Made by a program: the position numbers and the translations under genes. From Methanosarcina thermophila TM-1 (lineage in GTDB: Archaea; Halobacteriota; Methanosarcinia; Methanosarcinales; Methanosarcinaceae), in the NCBI RefSeq assembly GCF_000969885.1, contig NZ_CP009501.1:2983877-3047876 (forward strand): DNA of 64,000 nucleotides, in the 5' to 3' direction. Of this stretch, positions 34,117 to 43,816 are shown in pieces. The notes beneath the pieces are model-generated. The model was given only the letters and a program-made list of their open reading frames with translations. It was not told the origin of the DNA and did not search any database. Each line of letters begins with the position of its first letter. The first letter of the stretch is position 1.

Positions 34117-34586
34117 AAACACGCATTCTATGTATGTGAGTACCTTTAATATTCGTTTTTATAAATCACCTAGTAAGATAACGCAATAAAATATAAACTT
34201 TCTTATTAAATTTGTATATATACTTAATAAGAAATTAAATTGATTTTGCGGGAAAATCTAATTTCATTTTAAAAAAAATGTTATATAAAACGCATGTCTC
34301 CCCCTGGGTTCAATTGAGCTGATAATAATTATAAATATTATATCAACAGTTAAAATTATTTCTAGCTAACATTTTGATAAATCTGACAGGGATAAAATTC
34401 AGTTCCCCCTGGAATTCCGTATACTAAACTATTTGTGGTAATACATTCATCTCTCGTGAAGGGTTATATTTAAAAAATGATTCAACGTTGGAGTCATTTA
34501 TTTTTGAATTTCTGTTGAAGCTTAAATGCTTTGACAGGCTATTAATTGAGGGTCAAGAATTTAAAGGATAGTAGGAGGCATCCTGA
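34117..34586. promoter_or_regulatory. Upstream region of the glucoamylase gene
   Basis: This AT-rich gap of about 470 bp holds a TATA-like TGTTATATAAAACG at about 34279-34292. Near its end is a strong ribosome-binding site, GGAGG at 34573-34577, 9 nt before the ATT that occupies the start position of the glucoamylase. No ORF is supported here. Confidence 0.4.
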
Positions 34587-36596
34587 ATTAGGCCGTTAAT
34601 TTTTGGAAATGGGAGAATCCTGATTTGTGAGGACGAAAAGGGGACGATAAGGGATATTTATTTCCCATATGTGGGGCTTGAGAATCATGGGAACAGGATA
34701 AAGGCTGGGATATGTGACCTTGACTCTCTTTATTGTAGCTGGCTTGAAAACTGGAAGATTCAACAGAGGTATAAGTCCGAGTTTAAGGAAGATTTCTGTG
34801 AGCGTATTATTGAGATCTCTGGAAAAAGCAAGGAAGTAGTAGGGAAAACTGATATTGAGATCGTTAGTGAGGAAGTTCCTGAGGTTTGCAGGGGAATTAT
34901 CTCAAATATAGGGGAAACAATATTCGAAAATCCTGAATTAGGGCTGAAAATTACAGTCTGGGAAGCTGTCCACCCTTCGGTAAACATTTTCTACAGGACT
35001 TTTGAGATAAGGAATACCTCAAATTTGGTCAAACGCCTGCGTTTTTTCTCAAACCAGAACTACAAAATTCTTGAGACCAAAATCGGAGAAACTGCTGTAA
35101 TTGATAAAAATACGCTTATCCATTACAAACGCGACCGCTATTTTCTGCACGCGAGTGACCCTCCATTTGACCAGTACGCGGTTGGAACTGCAGAGTGGAA
35201 AGGGCTTGAAGGTACCTGGAGAGATATGGAAAGTGATGCTTCCCTGAGCGGAAACCCTGTAGCGCATGGTTCAGTGGACTCCACGCTTGGCTGGACTCTT
35301 CCTGAGTTGAAACCAGGGGAGGCGACAAGGCTGCACTACTGGATAGCGCTTGGAAAGAAATACCGAAGCGTGCTTCAAATTCATAAACGGGTAGCGGAAG
35401 CCGGAAGAAAAGCCCTATTCCATCACAACTTCAATTTCTGGAATTCATTTATTGAGCAGGTATCAGTTCTTCCGGAATCTGCCAGGATGTCTCAATTGCC
35501 TCAGCGTGTCTCAAAGTGCTTTTACAGAAGCTTGCTTGCAGTTGTCGCCCATATGGACATTAATGGCTCGATAATTGCATCCTGCGATTCGGATATAAAA
35601 CAGTTCGGAGCGGATCTTTACAGCTACTGCTGGCCCAGGGATGCAGCATGGGTATGCCTTGCGCTTGATCGGGCACGGTACCATCACCTGACTGCTGAGA
35701 CGTTTGAGTTTTTCGCAAAAACTATCACGCCCAGAGGCAACTTCCTTCACAAATACACGCCTGCCGGAGACTTCGGGAGCACCTGGCATCCTGTGCCTAT
35801 GATCCAGATCGATGAGACAGGGCTTCCTCTTTATGCCCTCTATAATAACTGGAAGATTGAAAAGAGTGTCTGGACAACAGGCAGGTACTACAGAAGGCTT
35901 GTACTCCCCACAGCTAATTATCTCGTAAAGGCAATTGACAGGGAAACAGACCTTCCGATTTCGAGCTTCGATCTCTGGGAGGAACGAAAAGGCGTGCATA
36001 CCTACAGTGCATGTACGGTCTACGCCGGGCTTAACGGAGCTTATGAACTCTCCCGCTCGCTTGGGGATTATGACAATGCAAATATCTGGAAAGAAGCTGC
36101 CGAGCGCGTCCGAAAGTCTATTCTGGAGAAGCTTTATGATGAAAGACTGAGGCGCTTCCGCCGTGGACTTAATGATGCTACTCTTGATTCTTCGGTCTTT
36201 GCCGTCTGGTACCTCGGAATTCTTCCTCCCGACGATATCAGGGTAGTCCAGACTATGGAGGCGATAGAACAGGAGCTTAAACGCCCTTCAGGCGGGATTG
36301 CTAGGTATCTTCACGACACCTACTTTGGCTATATGAACAGCTGGATTATCTGCACGCTCTGGCTGTCCCAGTGACACTCCGCAGTCGGCAACCTTGACCG
36401 GGCTCTCGAACTCCTTGAATGGTGCGCAGCTCACGCCCATCCCACTGGCCTTTTCTCGGAACAGATCGACGACGGAGGCAGACCTCTCTCGGTTCTCCCC
36501 CTTGCCTGGTCCCACTCTACATATGTCCTTGCTGTCCTGGAATACCTACAAGCCCTTGAGAAAAAAGAAAGTGGCTCCTGTGACTATCCTGAGTAA
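34587..36596 (+). pseudogene. GH15 glucoamylase gene with ATT start position and in-frame TGA
   Basis: The frame encodes a glycoside hydrolase 15 protein that would release glucose from starch or glycogen-like glucans. It contains LYSYCWPRDAAWVCLALD, and the acid motif SSFDLWEERKGVHTYSA. Two lesions are visible. First, homology-like sequence (RPLIFGNGRILICEDEKG) starts upstream of the first usable GTG at 34671; the codon ideally spaced from GGAGG (34573) is ATT at 34587. Second, TGA at 36372 interrupts the frame, yet the same frame continues for 73 codons to TAA at 36594 with clear GH15 sequence, including the catalytic-base region GLFSEQIDDGG (Glu at 36459) and LAWSHSTYVLAVLEY. The open part 34671-36374 alone would lack the base. 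It is probably inactivated, with TGG as the ancestral codon. Confidence 0.85.
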
Positions 36597-36647: not shown

Positions 36648-37249
36648 TCAGATCGAAGCGATCCTTCCGGCATCGGTTATAATGTATCCGCTTTCCCCAT
36701 CGGCTATGTAACCCATTGCTTTGAGTTTCCGAAGGTGGTTGTAAGTCATGCCCTTCGAGATTCCGGCAGTTGCAGCTATCTTGGTAACCGAGGATACTCC
36801 TTTCTGGATCTCTTCGAGTATCAATTTTTTTGTTTCCGACAGATTGAAACTCAGCACCGGAAAATCAATCATAAAACTATCCTCTTCGGTCACATATACA
36901 ACTCTCTGCACCATATCATTCCTTGCATACGCCCCGAAAAGTGCTCCAAAAGCCTGCGGCTTCCGCCCGCCTGACACGTTGACAATTACCTGGTTGCCTC
37001 AGCATGTTCCTGCTCAATCAGCTCAGCAACATCTTTTGCCACGCGCACAGTATCATAAACAGATGTGTACTTTTTCTCAACCACAAGTGCGTTTTTAAAC
37101 GTTTTTTCAATCATTTCCTCAGACTGCACCTTCTTATCAGGCGCCCCTTCCTCTGACAGCAATATTATTTTTGAAGGGGATAGCCGTGTTATACAGATGA
37201 TGACAGGTTCAAGGGAATAGATTGTGGAGATAAGTGTAAGCTTTGACAT
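36648..37249 (-). pseudogene. csa3: CRISPR regulator Csa3 (CARF-HTH), split by a frameshift
   Basis: Two minus-strand frames together make one Csa3-type regulator. 36986-37249 encodes the N-terminal CARF part (MSKLTLISTIYSLEPVIICI..., 87 aa) and ends at TAA. 36648-36977 encodes the rest: the CARF signature NVSGGRKPQAFGALFGAYA is at the junction, then a winged HTH (SVTKIAATAGISKGMTYNHL). The second frame is open upstream as QVIVNVSGGRK, so one missing base (or two extra) near 36985-37000 explains the break. Csa3 proteins bind cyclic oligoadenylate or similar ligands and control cas or array transcription. Divergence from cas8 (gap 37250-37584) fits a local regulator. It is a pseudogene unless this is a sequencing error. 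Confidence 0.82.
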
Positions 37250-37584
37250 TAGATGCTTATTATTGCGGGGGTGGGTTAAATGTTTTACTTATGGATTAGA
37301 TATTTACATTTCACTTCGTATCTAAACTACTTAACTCTAAACTGAAAAAGAATATATATTATATGAATAGTACATGTTTATGGTTAACACGTATAAGACA
37401 ATTCTCAAATGAACATGATATAATGGATAAATTAGTTCTGAGGTTTAGATTTTAGAAAGATATAAGTAGTTAGGAACTTTAAAAAGTAATATACTGTTAA
37501 AATGTATAAAATTTGTGTCATATCAATAACTGTGTTTATCTAAAGAGTGCGCACAAAAGCAAAATTGACTTGAAGGTAATGTCC
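37250..37584. promoter_or_regulatory. Divergent promoter between csa3 and the cas operon
   Basis: This AT-rich ~330 bp contains TATA-like words (ATATATATTATATGAA near 37350, ATGATATAATGG near 37414). Towards cas8, GAAGGT at 37572 is a suitable ribosome-binding site for ATG 37585. A TTG-started extension (37513) is possible but adds a 24-residue leader with no family character. Confidence 0.4.
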
Positions 37585-39270
37585 ATGACAAATCAAAAAA
37601 ATAAAGATGATTTTTTAGAAATTATTTTTCCTAAACTTAGTCATTTCTGGATGGATTCGGGATTACTTGGTTTATATAAAATAGCAGAAAAAGAGGATCC
37701 TTCAAAATTGGATGTAGAAATGCGACTCACTGACGAAGGACTTACCTTTAAGGGAAATGAAGATAATCTAACTGCACTATTTAATAAATCCTATAAGTCA
37801 CTTTTAGATCAATACTACAATAAATCAACTGAGAAGCAAAAGCAGAAGAAAGAAGGATTTTATTATGATTCAAAAGAAGACAAATTTGTACGTTTCCCAA
37901 AAGTAAAAGCCATGGGTATTGCTGGATTAATTTTTAATAAACCACCAAGAATGACTGCAAAACAGGTCAAATATGATGTTATTGAAGTGAATGAAGCAGG
38001 GAAAAAGATTAAGAAAAAAGTACTTCCTCCTGAATATTCACATTTACAAGATAGATTTGACAGTTTTCTTTCTGAAACGGGGCTAAAGATTTCTTCAAAT
38101 AACTTATTGATCGATGGGCCAAATGCAATTCGGCCTCAAGTTGATATCAAAGTAAAGAAGGGAAAAGAAAAAGGGAGATGTTTCATTTGTGGGGAAGCTT
38201 CTCATTCATTATCTGAAATTGGGGGTACTGTATATCCCATGATTACCGGTTCTTCCGGTGTATTATCCTTTAATTCCAACGGTGGAAGTCCTGAAAAAGT
38301 TTGTTGGAAATGTGATTTCTTAGGGAAATTTGTGCCAGTAAATGGTTTTTACGTGTACAATAATGACAGTTACAATATTTATTTCCCCTATTCTTCAAGT
38401 CCTATTAAAATGAGTGAGGTGTATGATTCTTTTCAAGCAGAAAAAATCGAGGATCCAAACCTATTAATAAATTTTAAAAATAATCTTGGATTTTTTTTCC
38501 AACATCCGTTTGAGCAATTTTTCTCTTTTTTGTATTCTTTATATTTAACATTTTTACGCAAGACGCCGACTGATGGAAGTGAATTTGAACTTGATTTAGA
38601 AAAACTTTTTGATGTATTTATTTTGAAAGCTCCTCTTGAGTTCTATATAATAAATACTAGGGCTTTAGGGGACACTCAAATGGGAAAAATGATTTGGCCG
38701 TTCAACGATTCTGTTTATTTGTTCCGATTATTCGATAAAATAGAGAAGAAAAAAATCAACTTAAAAGAAGTAATGGAAAATCTTATCGATTATGACCAAA
38801 AGAAAAATGACAATAAGACTCTGATAAGAAACAAAGTCTGTGAGCGTATTCTTAAGAAAAATAGCATACTTGAACTCATCGAGCAGTACGCATTTCATAT
38901 CAACAAGTCAAAAAAACGATACATAAAGCCTATACATGATTTTGTTATTGAATATGAGAAAATATTGAAAGAGGGTAATGATAAAGTGGATCAGGAAATT
39001 ATTGATACGGCGGTTAGTTTGGGAAAAACAATCGGGTTTAGTGTTGCTACTGCTGGTCGCAAAGGGAAAGGTGATCTTTTCAGGTTAAGAAGAACGAGAA
39101 AGCCAGAAGATTTCTTGAATGAAATCAATCGAATTCAGATCAAATATGGAGCTTTAGTTACTGCTGACTTGTATGGAAAGGGGCAAGAATTTGAGAATAA
39201 CTTCCAAGAATTTAAACAGTTTTGTATGATTGCTGCACTCAATACATTTAATGCTAAAAGTCAAAATTAA
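37585..39270 (+). CDS. cas8: Cas8, large subunit of type I-B-like Cascade
   Basis: The 561-aa protein has no strong catalytic motif, as usual for Cas8. It carries a zinc-finger insert: C199-F-I-C202 and, 37 residues later, C240-W-K-C243, the arrangement seen in Cas8a1/Cas8b-type (Cst1/Csh1) subunits. Position first in the cas operon, immediately before cas7 and cas5, agrees. Cas8 recognises the PAM and helps recruit Cas3. I cannot separate the Cas8a1 and Cas8b families by eye. The start at 37585 has a GAAGGT site 7 nt upstream; the longer reading starts with TTG 37513. Confidence 0.85.
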   Translation: MTNQKNKDDFLEIIFPKLSHFWMDSGLLGLYKIAEKEDPSKLDVEMRLTDEGLTFKGNEDNLTALFNKSYKSLLDQYYNKSTEKQKQKKEGFYYDSKEDKFVRFPKVKAMGIAGLIFNKPPRMTAKQVKYDVIEVNEAGKKIKKKVLPPEYSHLQDRFDSFLSETGLKISSNNLLIDGPNAIRPQVDIKVKKGKEKGRCFICGEASHSLSEIGGTVYPMITGSSGVLSFNSNGGSPEKVCWKCDFLGKFVPVNGFYVYNNDSYNIYFPYSSSPIKMSEVYDSFQAEKIEDPNLLINFKNNLGFFFQHPFEQFFSFLYSLYLTFLRKTPTDGSEFELDLEKLFDVFILKAPLEFYIINTRALGDTQMGKMIWPFNDSVYLFRLFDKIEKKKINLKEVMENLIDYDQKKNDNKTLIRNKVCERILKKNSILELIEQYAFHINKSKKRYIKPIHDFVIEYEKILKEGNDKVDQEIIDTAVSLGKTIGFSVATAGRKGKGDLFRLRRTRKPEDFLNEINRIQIKYGALVTADLYGKGQEFENNFQEFKQFCMIAALNTFNAKSQN

Positions 39271-39301
39271 TTTCACATGTATAATGGAGGAATAAAGAGG
39301 A

Positions 39302-40186
39302 ATGAAATCTGCAAAAGCATTAACTTTGACGTATTTAACGTCAGTATCATTTGCTTCACTGAACGGATCGGACAAAGAAGCAGATAATATGTCTAATATC
39401 AAAAAAATATCTGTAGGCGTTGAAGAATATCCTTACGTATCTTCTCAAGCTATTAGAAGGGCATTGAGAAATCAGCTTGAGGTATTAGGCAGAGAATTAT
39501 CGGAAGGAGTTGCTGCATCTCAAGCAAAGGGAGCTGCTACTACTCGACAAGAGCCTGATAAATTCATTGATGACGATCTTTTCGGATATATGGGAACCGA
39601 GAGTGGAGATGGAAATACTAAGGGAGGATCTACTAAGAGAACTTCTGTAGTGAGAGTTTCGCCTTTAATAGCACTGAATCCATATCAAGGGGATTTAGAT
39701 TTCGGTACAAACTACATGGGCGTAAAAGCTGGAGGAGACCCTAATATCTTTGAGACAGAGATTCATTCCGGTCTTTATAGGGGAACTATACTAATTGAAC
39801 TTGACAGAGTTGGAAAGGATGAATCTAGGGAGTACATTGACAACCAGGAGAAAGCGGCAAGGGTTAAAGATTTACTTAAAGCTATCAAAAATTTGTGGGC
39901 TTCTGGCAGACAAAGTAGGTTCCTTGCGGATATTGCTCCTAAGTTTGTGATTGCTGCTATGTTAAGTACTAAAAACCCTATTTTTCTTGAGAGTGTAAAA
40001 CTTGAAGGAAATACAATTAATGTTCCGATCATAGAGGAAACTCTGAAAGATTATGAACCTGAAATAATATCTTCGGTTATTGGCATGAGAAAAGGATTTT
40101 TTGCTAATGATATCGTGAACGCAAAATCTATAGGGGAAGCATTTGAAGAGATGGCAAGATGGATCGATGAATATTATAAGCAGTGA
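39302..40186 (+). CDS. cas7: Cas7, Cascade backbone (Cst2/DevR-like)
   Basis: The 294-aa protein belongs to the Cas7/DevR family that coats the crRNA. Family-like segments are LTLTYLTSVSFASLNGSDKE near the N-terminus, VGVEEYPYVSSQAIRRALRN, and RVSPLIALNPYQGDLDFGTN. Ribosome-binding sites GGAGG (39284) and AGAGGA precede the ATG. A 31-bp gap separates it from cas8 and its stop overlaps cas5, so it is part of the operon. Residues 75-125 (AAATTRQEPDKFIDDDLFG...) form a flexible insert. Confidence 0.9.
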   Translation: MKSAKALTLTYLTSVSFASLNGSDKEADNMSNIKKISVGVEEYPYVSSQAIRRALRNQLEVLGRELSEGVAASQAKGAATTRQEPDKFIDDDLFGYMGTESGDGNTKGGSTKRTSVVRVSPLIALNPYQGDLDFGTNYMGVKAGGDPNIFETEIHSGLYRGTILIELDRVGKDESREYIDNQEKAARVKDLLKAIKNLWASGRQSRFLADIAPKFVIAAMLSTKNPIFLESVKLEGNTINVPIIEETLKDYEPEIISSVIGMRKGFFANDIVNAKSIGEAFEEMARWIDEYYKQ

Positions 40187-40932
40187 TAACTATGTTTATC
40201 TTTTCAGTGGAAGGGGTATCATTAACTGCTTCTTTTCGATCTCCAGAAAATCATACATTTCACAAAACACTCCCATTACCCCCTAAAACAACAATAATTG
40301 GGATGATGGGTGCAGCTCTGGGATTGTCCTTAGAGTCAGTTCATAAATTTGTAGAAGAAAATGAGATTCTAATAGGAGTCTATGGCTTTAATAAAGGTTT
40401 AATGCGAGACCTATGGAATTATAGGAAACTTACGGGTAAAGAGAAGAACTACACTAAGGACGATATTAAAAATCGTAGACATTATAGTGTTTTGGTTCGA
40501 GAATATTTATATGACAACTTGTTTACATTTTATTTCGGATGCAATGAGCTTGGAAAATTAGAGCATTTAAGATCTGCATTTCTATCGCCTGTATATCCTT
40601 TAACTGTTGGAAACAGTGATGATTTATTTAAAACATGCAAGATTGGAGAGATTATTGAAGAGAAAAAATGTAAACTAAAAAAGTTTGAGTATACAATTCT
40701 ACCTGGAGATCTCTCAAATCTCTACAAGAACGACATAGACTTTAGCCAACTCCCAATAATTAAAACAGTAAACACGCCTCAAGTATTTCTTTTGCCTACA
40801 AGATTCATTTTTGAAGGGGATGAAAGAAGAGTAGGTGAACGTCAAAAATTCACTTTTGTAAGTACTCCTGTTATATTGAAAACAGAAATCGATGGATATA
40901 CTGTAAATGGAAGAAATGTTGTGTTGTTATGA
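40183..40932 (+). CDS. cas5: Cas5, Cascade subunit binding the crRNA 5' handle
   Basis: The 249-aa RAMP protein opens with the Cas5 signature: FIFSVEGVSLTASFRSPENH, then KTLPLPPKTTIIGMMGAALG, the characteristic turn PPKTTIIGMMGAA. Cas5 caps the crRNA 5' handle in Cascade. Start is GTG 40183 overlapping the cas7 stop, or ATG 40192, three codons in. Its stop overlaps the cas3 ATG (ATGA). In type I-B Cas5 is normally non-catalytic because Cas6 processes the crRNA. Confidence 0.9.
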   Translation: MITMFIFSVEGVSLTASFRSPENHTFHKTLPLPPKTTIIGMMGAALGLSLESVHKFVEENEILIGVYGFNKGLMRDLWNYRKLTGKEKNYTKDDIKNRRHYSVLVREYLYDNLFTFYFGCNELGKLEHLRSAFLSPVYPLTVGNSDDLFKTCKIGEIIEEKKCKLKKFEYTILPGDLSNLYKNDIDFSQLPIIKTVNTPQVFLLPTRFIFEGDERRVGERQKFTFVSTPVILKTEIDGYTVNGRNVVLL

Positions 40933-43163
40933 ATTGCGTTATTTGGGCTAAACCTGACCAACTATATGACGAACATATTAATGCTTCTTATAGAGCCTGG
41001 AAACAGACAGTTGAGGCAAAAAAGAAACAGATTCAAAGGTTTAGTCAGGAATTTGATTTTGATGAAAGTCGCTTTTTGAAGAGTTCTCTTTTAAGTGTAG
41101 TTCTACATGACATTGGAAAATGTACAGATATATTTCAGCAAATGATGGCTGCAAAACAAAAAGGCAATCATTTTAACTATAGTGAAAATTACAGGCATGA
41201 GCTTGTATCTTTCATATATGCTGTCTATGGTAGTGCTGCTTTAATGCAAAAGGAAGGGTTATTGATTGGAAAACTTCCAATTGAAGCTCTTGCTGTTTTA
41301 GGTCACCATAAAGCAATCAATCCAAATATGTCTTTTTTTGAAAAAGAAAGAACAAATGAGATACCATCTGTAATTGATGATGGAGCAAACCAGGCATTGC
41401 TTTTGGCAAAACAAATTTTTGAAAAAGAAGGCTATGATTTCCCAGATTCTCTTTTTAAATTGAGCATGAAGAATATAGATCCATACAAAACTGCAAGTAA
41501 ATTTTTGAATAATTTTGTTGCCAAAATTTTCCAAGAAGAAAGTAGTCGTGAGGCAATTAGGCCAACTTACCTGCTTTTAAAAGCTATCTTGCACTATTCA
41601 GATTGGTATGGTTCTTCAGATTCAGATGTCAATTATAGTTTGCAAACTAAATCTATAGAACTGGTTTCTGAAATTGAAAAAAGGTGTAAACTGAAGAACA
41701 TCAATTTCACCGGTTTGACAGAATTTCAAAAAGAGTGTGCCAGCACATTAGGTCACGTAATTGCAATTGCACCTACTGGCAGTGGGAAAACTGAAGCATC
41801 GCTCTTATGGGCATTAAATAATTTAGAGGATATGGGCGGGGGTAAATTAATCTATTTGTTGCCAACAATGGTTACAGCAAATAGTATTTTTTTACGTCTT
41901 GAAGATTATTTTGGAAAGGGAAATGTAGGGCTAACACATTCTACAGCTTCTTTTATGTTCCAGGAAGAAGAGGATAATCCAATAGAAAGAAGTGTACTGT
42001 TTGATAAATCCTTTATAAAGCCTGTGACTGTAGCTACAATTGATCAATTGCTGGTAACAGGATTCAATCATGGAAAATGGACACTCATTGAAGCGAATGC
42101 AGCTAACGCCGTTATAATAATTGATGAAATACATTCATACGACTCTTGGACATTGGGTCTCGTTATAAAATCGATTGAACATTTTTCGAGGCTCGGAGCT
42201 AGATTCATGCTCATGAGTGCAACTATGCCTGCCTATCTTACAAATCTTTTATCAAAGGCATTTCCTTCTGTAGAAGTGATAAAAGACAATTTTTTGTTAA
42301 ATTCATGCAGAAATAAGTATACTACATATGACAAGTATATTGACGATGCAATTTCAGATATCGAACAATCAGTGTATGATGGTAAAAAAACACTGGTAGT
42401 TGTTAATAATGTTGCAAAATGCCAGGAATTGTATGAGAAATTAAGTTATTTAAATCCTGTTTGTTACCACTCTAAATTTACATTGGAAGATAGAATAAAA
42501 AAAGAAAGCTTCATTGAAGAGAGTAAACTCCTAATTGCTACACAAGTTGTTGAAGTGTCGTTAGATATAGATTTTGATGTCATGTTCTGTGAATGTGCCC
42601 CTCCGGATGCAATTGTCCAAAGAGCTGGAAGAGTGAATAGAAGACGAAAAAAAACAGATACCCACATATTCATTTTTAAAGCATCAGACGTCTCAAAAAG
42701 GATTTACGATCCAGATTCAACTGGACTATTGACAAGCTCTTTTCAATCTTTTGAAAGCTCCCCTGAGAATTTAACAGAGGCTGATCTTATACGAATAGTT
42801 GATAATGTTTACTCTAAGATTAAAATTGAAGATTCAAAGAACTTTATTGATTCTAGTACACAATATGAAAAAACACAAGAGAGACTATCTGGAGTCTTCG
42901 ATAATCCAAACAGAGAAGATAATAATGAAGTTACAAGAAAAATGGATTACCTACAGATTCCTGTAATTCCACTTGTTTTCAGAGATGAAGCCCTGAGACT
43001 TCCCCCCTCAAAGCGCCGTTTGTTCGAAATCAAGGTGCCTTACTGGTACGTATTAAAAAACAAACAAGAAATTAGGGGAATTACTTTTTGTGAAATTGAT
43101 TATGATTTCGAAATCGGTGCGCAATTTAAAAATGATAATGAAATTTCGAGTTTGATAATATGA
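40929..43163 (+). CDS. cas3: Cas3 HD nuclease-helicase
   Basis: This 744-aa single polypeptide has an N-terminal HD nuclease (LHDIGK, H60-D61; later LGHHKAI) and a C-terminal superfamily 2 helicase: Walker A IAPTGSGKTE (about 280-289), DEIH at 399-402 (IIDEIHSYD), LMSATMP, and VQRAGRVNRR. It degrades target DNA after Cascade binding. Having HD and helicase in one chain fits type I-B rather than I-A, where they are usually separate. All key residues are present, so the enzyme should be active. It overlaps both cas5 and cas6 by 4 nt. Confidence 0.95.
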   Translation: MNCVIWAKPDQLYDEHINASYRAWKQTVEAKKKQIQRFSQEFDFDESRFLKSSLLSVVLHDIGKCTDIFQQMMAAKQKGNHFNYSENYRHELVSFIYAVYGSAALMQKEGLLIGKLPIEALAVLGHHKAINPNMSFFEKERTNEIPSVIDDGANQALLLAKQIFEKEGYDFPDSLFKLSMKNIDPYKTASKFLNNFVAKIFQEESSREAIRPTYLLLKAILHYSDWYGSSDSDVNYSLQTKSIELVSEIEKRCKLKNINFTGLTEFQKECASTLGHVIAIAPTGSGKTEASLLWALNNLEDMGGGKLIYLLPTMVTANSIFLRLEDYFGKGNVGLTHSTASFMFQEEEDNPIERSVLFDKSFIKPVTVATIDQLLVTGFNHGKWTLIEANAANAVIIIDEIHSYDSWTLGLVIKSIEHFSRLGARFMLMSATMPAYLTNLLSKAFPSVEVIKDNFLLNSCRNKYTTYDKYIDDAISDIEQSVYDGKKTLVVVNNVAKCQELYEKLSYLNPVCYHSKFTLEDRIKKESFIEESKLLIATQVVEVSLDIDFDVMFCECAPPDAIVQRAGRVNRRRKKTDTHIFIFKASDVSKRIYDPDSTGLLTSSFQSFESSPENLTEADLIRIVDNVYSKIKIEDSKNFIDSSTQYEKTQERLSGVFDNPNREDNNEVTRKMDYLQIPVIPLVFRDEALRLPPSKRRLFEIKVPYWYVLKNKQEIRGITFCEIDYDFEIGAQFKNDNEISSLII

Positions 43164-43816
43164 ATCTTCTCGTTTTCACTTTAACACTCACTTCCACTTG
43201 TCCCATAAAGGAATCTGGCGCTCAGCTCAGGGGATTTTTTGCTAATAGATTCAATGAATATAATCTCCTACACCAGCACGACACTGATAAACTCATTTAT
43301 CGGTATCCAATGGTCCAGTACAAAATGATAGATGGGAAGCCTATTATTGTTGGAATTAATGAGGGTGCAGAGGTATTGAAGGAAATATATGATGAATATG
43401 AAAAGATCAACCTCAATGGTAATGAATATGAGATAGTTGAACGAGGGATTACTTACAAAAAGGAAGATTTCGGCATCTCAGAGAAGCTCATCAAATATGA
43501 GTTTATAACGCCATGGTTTGCACTTAATCAGGAAAATTTTAGGAAATATCTTTCCTTTGATAAAGAACAGAGAGCAGAATTGCTAAATAAAAATTTGATT
43601 GGAAATATCCTCTCCATGTCCAAATCCCTCGGTTATCAAGTGCCTGAAAAGATCAAGTGCCATACTGAGCTTAAATCTTGCCGTTCAAACCTTAAAGGAA
43701 ATGAAATTATTGTATTTAAAGGCTCTTTTATCACGAATTTCCTCATTCCAGACTATTTTGGCCTTGGAAAATCTGTTTCCCGCGGTTTCGGGACGGTGAA
43801 AAGATGCAGCTTGTAA
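43160..43816 (+). CDS. cas6: Cas6 crRNA-processing endonuclease
   Basis: This 218-aa RAMP protein opens with IPIKESGAQLRGFFANRF-like sequence (TCPIKESGAQLRGFFANRF) and ends with the Gly-rich loop YFGLGKSVSRGFGTVKRC, typical of Cas6. It cleaves the precursor within the repeat, leaving an 8-nt handle (here expected ATTGAAAC). Histidines near residues 38-40 (LLHQHDTD) are candidates for the catalytic position. The gene lies between cas3 and cas1, not at the front of the operon as in many I-B loci. It overlaps cas1 by 13 nt. Confidence 0.87.
   Translation: MNLLVFTLTLTSTCPIKESGAQLRGFFANRFNEYNLLHQHDTDKLIYRYPMVQYKMIDGKPIIVGINEGAEVLKEIYDEYEKINLNGNEYEIVERGITYKKEDFGISEKLIKYEFITPWFALNQENFRKYLSFDKEQRAELLNKNLIGNILSMSKSLGYQVPEKIKCHTELKSCRSNLKGNEIIVFKGSFITNFLIPDYFGLGKSVSRGFGTVKRCSL

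Follow-up and report, generated by a model that had tools for sequence, protein, structure and literature searches.

AUU is known as a conserved start codon behind a Shine-Dalgarno (SD) sequence in the bacterial genes infC (encoding IF3) and pcnB, and AUU starts in bacteria are known as rare events. The non-canonical start of infC has been noted in connection with Streptomyces sigR, whose GTC start is conserved across the genus behind an extensive SD and is mis-annotated by gene callers (PMC5472188). In Archaea, aIF1 destabilises complexes on non-AUG codons as part of the fidelity system (PMC6237735), and an ATT start has been inferred from the sequence and the position of the ribosome-binding site for the Asgard tubulin gene atubA (PMC13394414). 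The word AUU is absent from a review of archaeal recoding (PMC8211752), and passages of the Methanosarcina mazei Ribo-seq report on small ORFs give ATG, GTG, TTG, and CTG as starts and no ATT (PMC11456600). In a survey of 36 genome triplets, a switch to AUU occurred at only one of 61,358 ancestral AUG starts (PMC5622118), so that a recurring and retained set of AUU starts would be unusual. In the open-access literature, no earlier description of conserved AUU starts as a class in Methanosarcina was found.

The locus described here is a GH15 glucoamylase-type gene in a 64,000-nucleotide stretch (the window) of a closed Methanosarcina genome (G000; 3,127,379 bases, 99.95% completeness). It resembles infC and pcnB in that AUU, its putative start codon, is conserved and follows an SD; however, those genes are bacterial and discriminated by IF3, while this one is archaeal, with the fidelity role falling to aIF1 (PMC6237735), and metabolic. 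It resembles sigR in the conservation of a non-canonical start across a genus behind an SD and in the mis-annotation by gene callers, although the sigR start has been tested experimentally and is repressed by IF3 (PMC5472188), whereas the present one is known from sequence. With atubA it shares an archaeal ATT start deduced from sequence and RBS position, but atubA is a single inferred case, while Methanosarcina presents a conserved gene set. The features of the locus are as follows.

34574..34578, plus strand: Shine-Dalgarno GGAGG, 8 nt before the ATT; G at -12 in 29 of 30 orthologues, at -10 and -9 in 28 of 30
34581..34607, plus strand: predicted mRNA hairpin with the AUU in the stem and the SD outside, from pairing and covariation over 27 sequences
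34584..34586, plus strand: in-frame TGA abutting the ATT on its 5' side, likewise present in G021 and G007
34587..34589, plus strand: putative ATT start codon; ATT, ATA, ATC, GTT, or ACG in 30 orthologues
34587..36371, plus strand: 595 codons of GH15 coding frame ahead of the premature TGA
36372..36374, plus strand: premature TGA replacing an otherwise invariant Trp codon, TGG, from the orthologue and sister-genome comparison
36375..36596, plus strand: 3' GH15 frame after the premature stop, 73 codons and TAA
36447..36464, plus strand: GLFSEQ motif, with the Glu codon at 36459-36461
36594-36596, plus strand: terminal TAA of the GH15 frame
36648..37249, minus strand: winged-helix regulator gene with a one-base deletion near 36996, broken in this genome only

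The sequence-only reading of this locus had described an ATT spaced from GGAGG, and an in-frame TGA followed by 73 coherent GH15 codons that run through GLFSEQ to a TAA. Both descriptions hold, the GGAGG lying one base later than the position given (34573). That reading had further taken the ATT and the TGA for two independent lesions, and the two codons fare very differently when compared with orthologues. Codon 1 was read in Methanosarcina and other genera of its family, in 30 orthologues altogether. It is ATT in 23, ATA in three, ATC in two, GTT in one, and ACG in one, and none of the 30 has ATG, GTG, or TTG. On the orthologue tree, GTT, ACG, and both ATC codons occupy single scattered branches, the ATA genes group with the ACG gene, and the rest are ATT. 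Nearly all orthologues have the SD (GG[A/G]GG, positions -13 to -9) at an unchanged distance, and in the alignment third-base variation sets in at codon 1 and continues onward, while the variation upstream is without codon pattern. The first canonical start downstream is not conserved, falling anywhere from codon 11 to beyond codon 200, the latter in several species; in the present genome it is the GTG at 34671. As in genes of the infC and sigR type, many species keep a codon other than ATG, GTG, or TTG where the coding sequence begins after the SD, with no usable canonical start near codon 1. This comparison, which the sequence-only reading had itself proposed, went against the ATT being a lesion, and the combination of SD and ATT recurs in other conserved genes (below); the ATT at 34587 is read here, from sequence, as the start codon of this gene, ancestral to the genus. 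That none of the 30 orthologues has a canonical codon there is consistent with selection, but independent changes are few.

The other genes come from a census of 800 kb in 40 stretches plus the window (864 kb, 549 coding-like frames), in which coding sequence preceding the first canonical start was sought. Five further genes have an SD and ATT at the coding onset.

L120:15791-16774: methanogenesis marker 11 (Mmp11; TIGR03280, 390 bits)
metallophosphoesterase
HAE3/MMPL transporter (TIGR00921, 787 bits)
L119:14713-15879, minus strand: unnamed 389-codon frame
GH15 paralogue B, in both G000 and G021

Three of the five keep ATT across the genus, and two alternate between ATT and ATG by lineage. In Mmp11, GGAGG, 8 nt, and ATT are found in all 12 Methanosarcina read (L120, L139-L149); outside the genus there is ATA in G035 and no clear start in G032 or G036. 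Synonymous change is almost absent from the eight codons that follow the Mmp11 start, which suggests an extra constraint at the RNA level. The metallophosphoesterase has ATT at all 15 places read, paralogues included; the transporter codon is ATT in 13 cases and ATC in two. One example of alternation is the unnamed L119 protein (orthologues L181-L191), in which one Methanosarcina group, of seven species, has ATT, and another, of five, has ATG in exactly that position after the same SD. The other example is GH15 paralogue B, which carries ATG in other genomes but ATT in both G000 and the sister genome G021, with a dN/dS of 0.27 there. Such an exchange of ATT for ATG between lineages marks the position as a start site and is the strongest sequence evidence for ATT acting as a start. 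Extrapolation from five genes in 800 kb gives about 20 AUU-start genes per genome, probably a lower bound, since frames in which a canonical codon happens to lie nearby escape detection. Among the sampled frames, the enrichment of ATH at the SD-spaced position is modest (9 of 37, against a background of 9.7%; p = 0.008), a point that tempers the case for AUU starts. The strict downstream coding filter of this test missed GH15 A and B, and it is the orthologues on which the class claim is based. Methanosarcina most likely has AUU as a minor start codon that recurs among its genes.

An alternative is that the ATT at 34587 is an internal isoleucine codon, the real start lying upstream, being reached via a frameshift, or going unrecognised. 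The third base of codon 1 varies among T, C, and A, as a coding Ile would, which also weighs against initiation at AUU, and a GTG or ATG is found a few codons upstream in some genomes; in one clade the GTG, at -3, overlaps the SD. However, in three species (G000, G021, and G007) a stop is directly ahead of codon 1, and since the TGA at 34584-34586 abuts the ATT in frame, nothing upstream can be a start in that frame. In addition, in 19 of the 30 orthologues the interval from the upstream stop to codon 1 is free of canonical starts, the SD spacing points to codon 1, the codon-like conservation ends there, and ATT trades places with ATG at one site in two other genes. We consider the internal position improbable. 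Still less credible is the proposal that ATG became ATT and TGG became TGA in one lineage. Each codon is indeed one base from the normal one, but the first is non-canonical in every orthologue and the TGA occurs in this genome only, and the ATT part is refuted; of the two lesions once proposed, the TGA alone survives.

The frame ahead of the TGA matches the Pfam GH15 family (PF00723) at 70.7 bits against a gathering score of 22, compared to 89.8 bits for the intact G021 orthologue, and the tail behind it matches profile positions 384-425 of 427 at 20.8 bits. Against the sister genome, dN/dS is 0.10 both before and after the TGA, and therefore neither part is a chance reading frame. While the Pfam match and the GLFSEQ motif ally the gene with GH15 glucoamylases and oligosaccharide amylases, the truncated frame is far under the TIGR01577 oligosaccharide amylase equivalog cut-off (298.9 versus 820.7), and the Glu of GLFSEQ, the catalytic base in GH15 enzymes, is outside the translated protein here, being behind the TGA, and inside it in the intact orthologue. 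A solved-structure match, to a distant dextran dextrinase, covers residues 349-582 only and stops short of the catalytic base; it was set aside.

All other GH15 orthologues with sequence at 36372 carry TGG; the TGA is thus a single-base nonsense change peculiar to this genome, ahead of the catalytic base, and the gene is intact in the relatives. Over the 80 bases around it, this genome and its sister differ by that base and by one silent change in the next codon. The adjacent winged-helix regulator, a single 200-codon frame in G021, L034, and L035, is in two pieces here through the loss of one base. When 21 frames of the sister genome were compared with the window, 18 were intact and three interrupted: the GH15 gene, the winged-helix regulator, and a short, doubtful frame of 112 codons near 10.4 kb. 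The winged-helix regulator adjoins a CRISPR-type operon; this cas-like operon (window 37300-43800) has no aligned counterpart in the G021 stretch compared, and both of its flanks align. Since the TGA takes away the catalytic base and the adjacent gene has a frameshift that is likewise private, recent inactivation is the most likely course, and the GH15 gene is probably a fresh pseudogene in this genome. The truncated protein, deprived of its last 74 codons, would likely be inactive.

A sequencing or assembly error at the TGA, with the gene intact, is unlikely, though the least so of the alternatives. A single base is concerned, in the one genome of the species in which the TGA was checked, a one-base indel is present in the neighbour too, and the equal dN/dS before and after the TGA means either an error or a change too recent to leave a trace; an absence of decay behind the TGA is expected of a pseudogene only if the TGA is very recent, which counts against inactivation. 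Arguing against an error are the closed and nearly complete genome, the intact state of most neighbouring genes compared, and the TGA site, which is not a homopolymer. Methanosarcina recodes UAG, not UGA. Read-through or recoding of the UGA into a full-length enzyme, for which the undiminished constraint on the tail might speak, meets with a further objection, as the TGA is not conserved among orthologues and the codon is one for Trp in all relatives, and we give it very little credence. The sequence-only reading had offered UGA readthrough together with ATT initiation as a rarer alternative, of which the comparison favours initiation at ATT and disfavours readthrough.

We thus regard it as very probable that this GH15 gene normally starts at AUU, as a member of a conserved AUU class, and that a private TGA has turned it into a probable fresh pseudogene. 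The strong SD would most likely place the initiator Met-tRNA on the AUU of the GH15 mRNA, and the archaeal fidelity system would tolerate an initiator tRNA so held. Translation would presumably be weak, by analogy with infC, pcnB, and sigR, and this weakness may be selected or merely tolerated. That the AUU is actually used, and that it lowers expression, we infer from the sequence patterns. The near-cognate start would be ancestral to the genus, and the change from TGG to TGA, in this genome alone, would cut off the C-terminal part with the catalytic base. No special initiator tRNA is pointed to among the 27 tRNA loci scanned, which include ordinary Met(CAT) and Ile(GAT).

The AUU is located in a conserved predicted stem just behind a free SD. 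In the hairpin, 93.9% of cells are paired over 27 sequences and three pairs show double changes; none of 500 shuffles matched the pairing and two of 500 the covariation score. This support is moderate and suggestive only, because one strand is under constraint from its coding part and the sequences share ancestry. A more tentative proposal, which we hold as possible rather than probable, is that the approximately 20 AUU-start genes are kept on AUU by selection, with start-codon fidelity (probably through aIF1) holding their translation low or adjustable and the GH15 hairpin serving as a second control; if true, it would add a layer of translational control that spans a whole archaeal genus. 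As gene callers usually take only ATG, GTG, and TTG, the annotation of AUU genes is likely to miss tens to hundreds of codons. If real, a conserved class of AUU starts in an archaeon amenable to genetics would mean that near-cognate codons are tolerated, and may be exploited, in archaeal initiation, and it would open the fidelity role of aIF1 to testing in vivo.

Other observations concern genes outside the AUU count. Three coding-like candidates (L088, L132, and L083), which have no SD or look fragmentary, were left out of it. In G023, GH15 paralogue B (L049, G023:C33:6898-8874) has many in-frame stops, an independently decayed copy. A 2-isopropylmalate-synthase-type gene (L092:13754, L093-L104), in which TGAGGGATTATATTA is kept family-wide, has no canonical start and an invariant TTA, or ATA/GTA, behind TGAGGG; its start is probably TTA or ATA. 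An ABC ATPase (L075:18688-19692, minus strand; L105-L112), also with no canonical start, likely uses a CUG start, as the CTG that follows its GGGG or GGAG is invariant. A matrixin-like protease (L131:10297-11022; PF00413) has ATA behind GGAGG, with no canonical start before codon 78.
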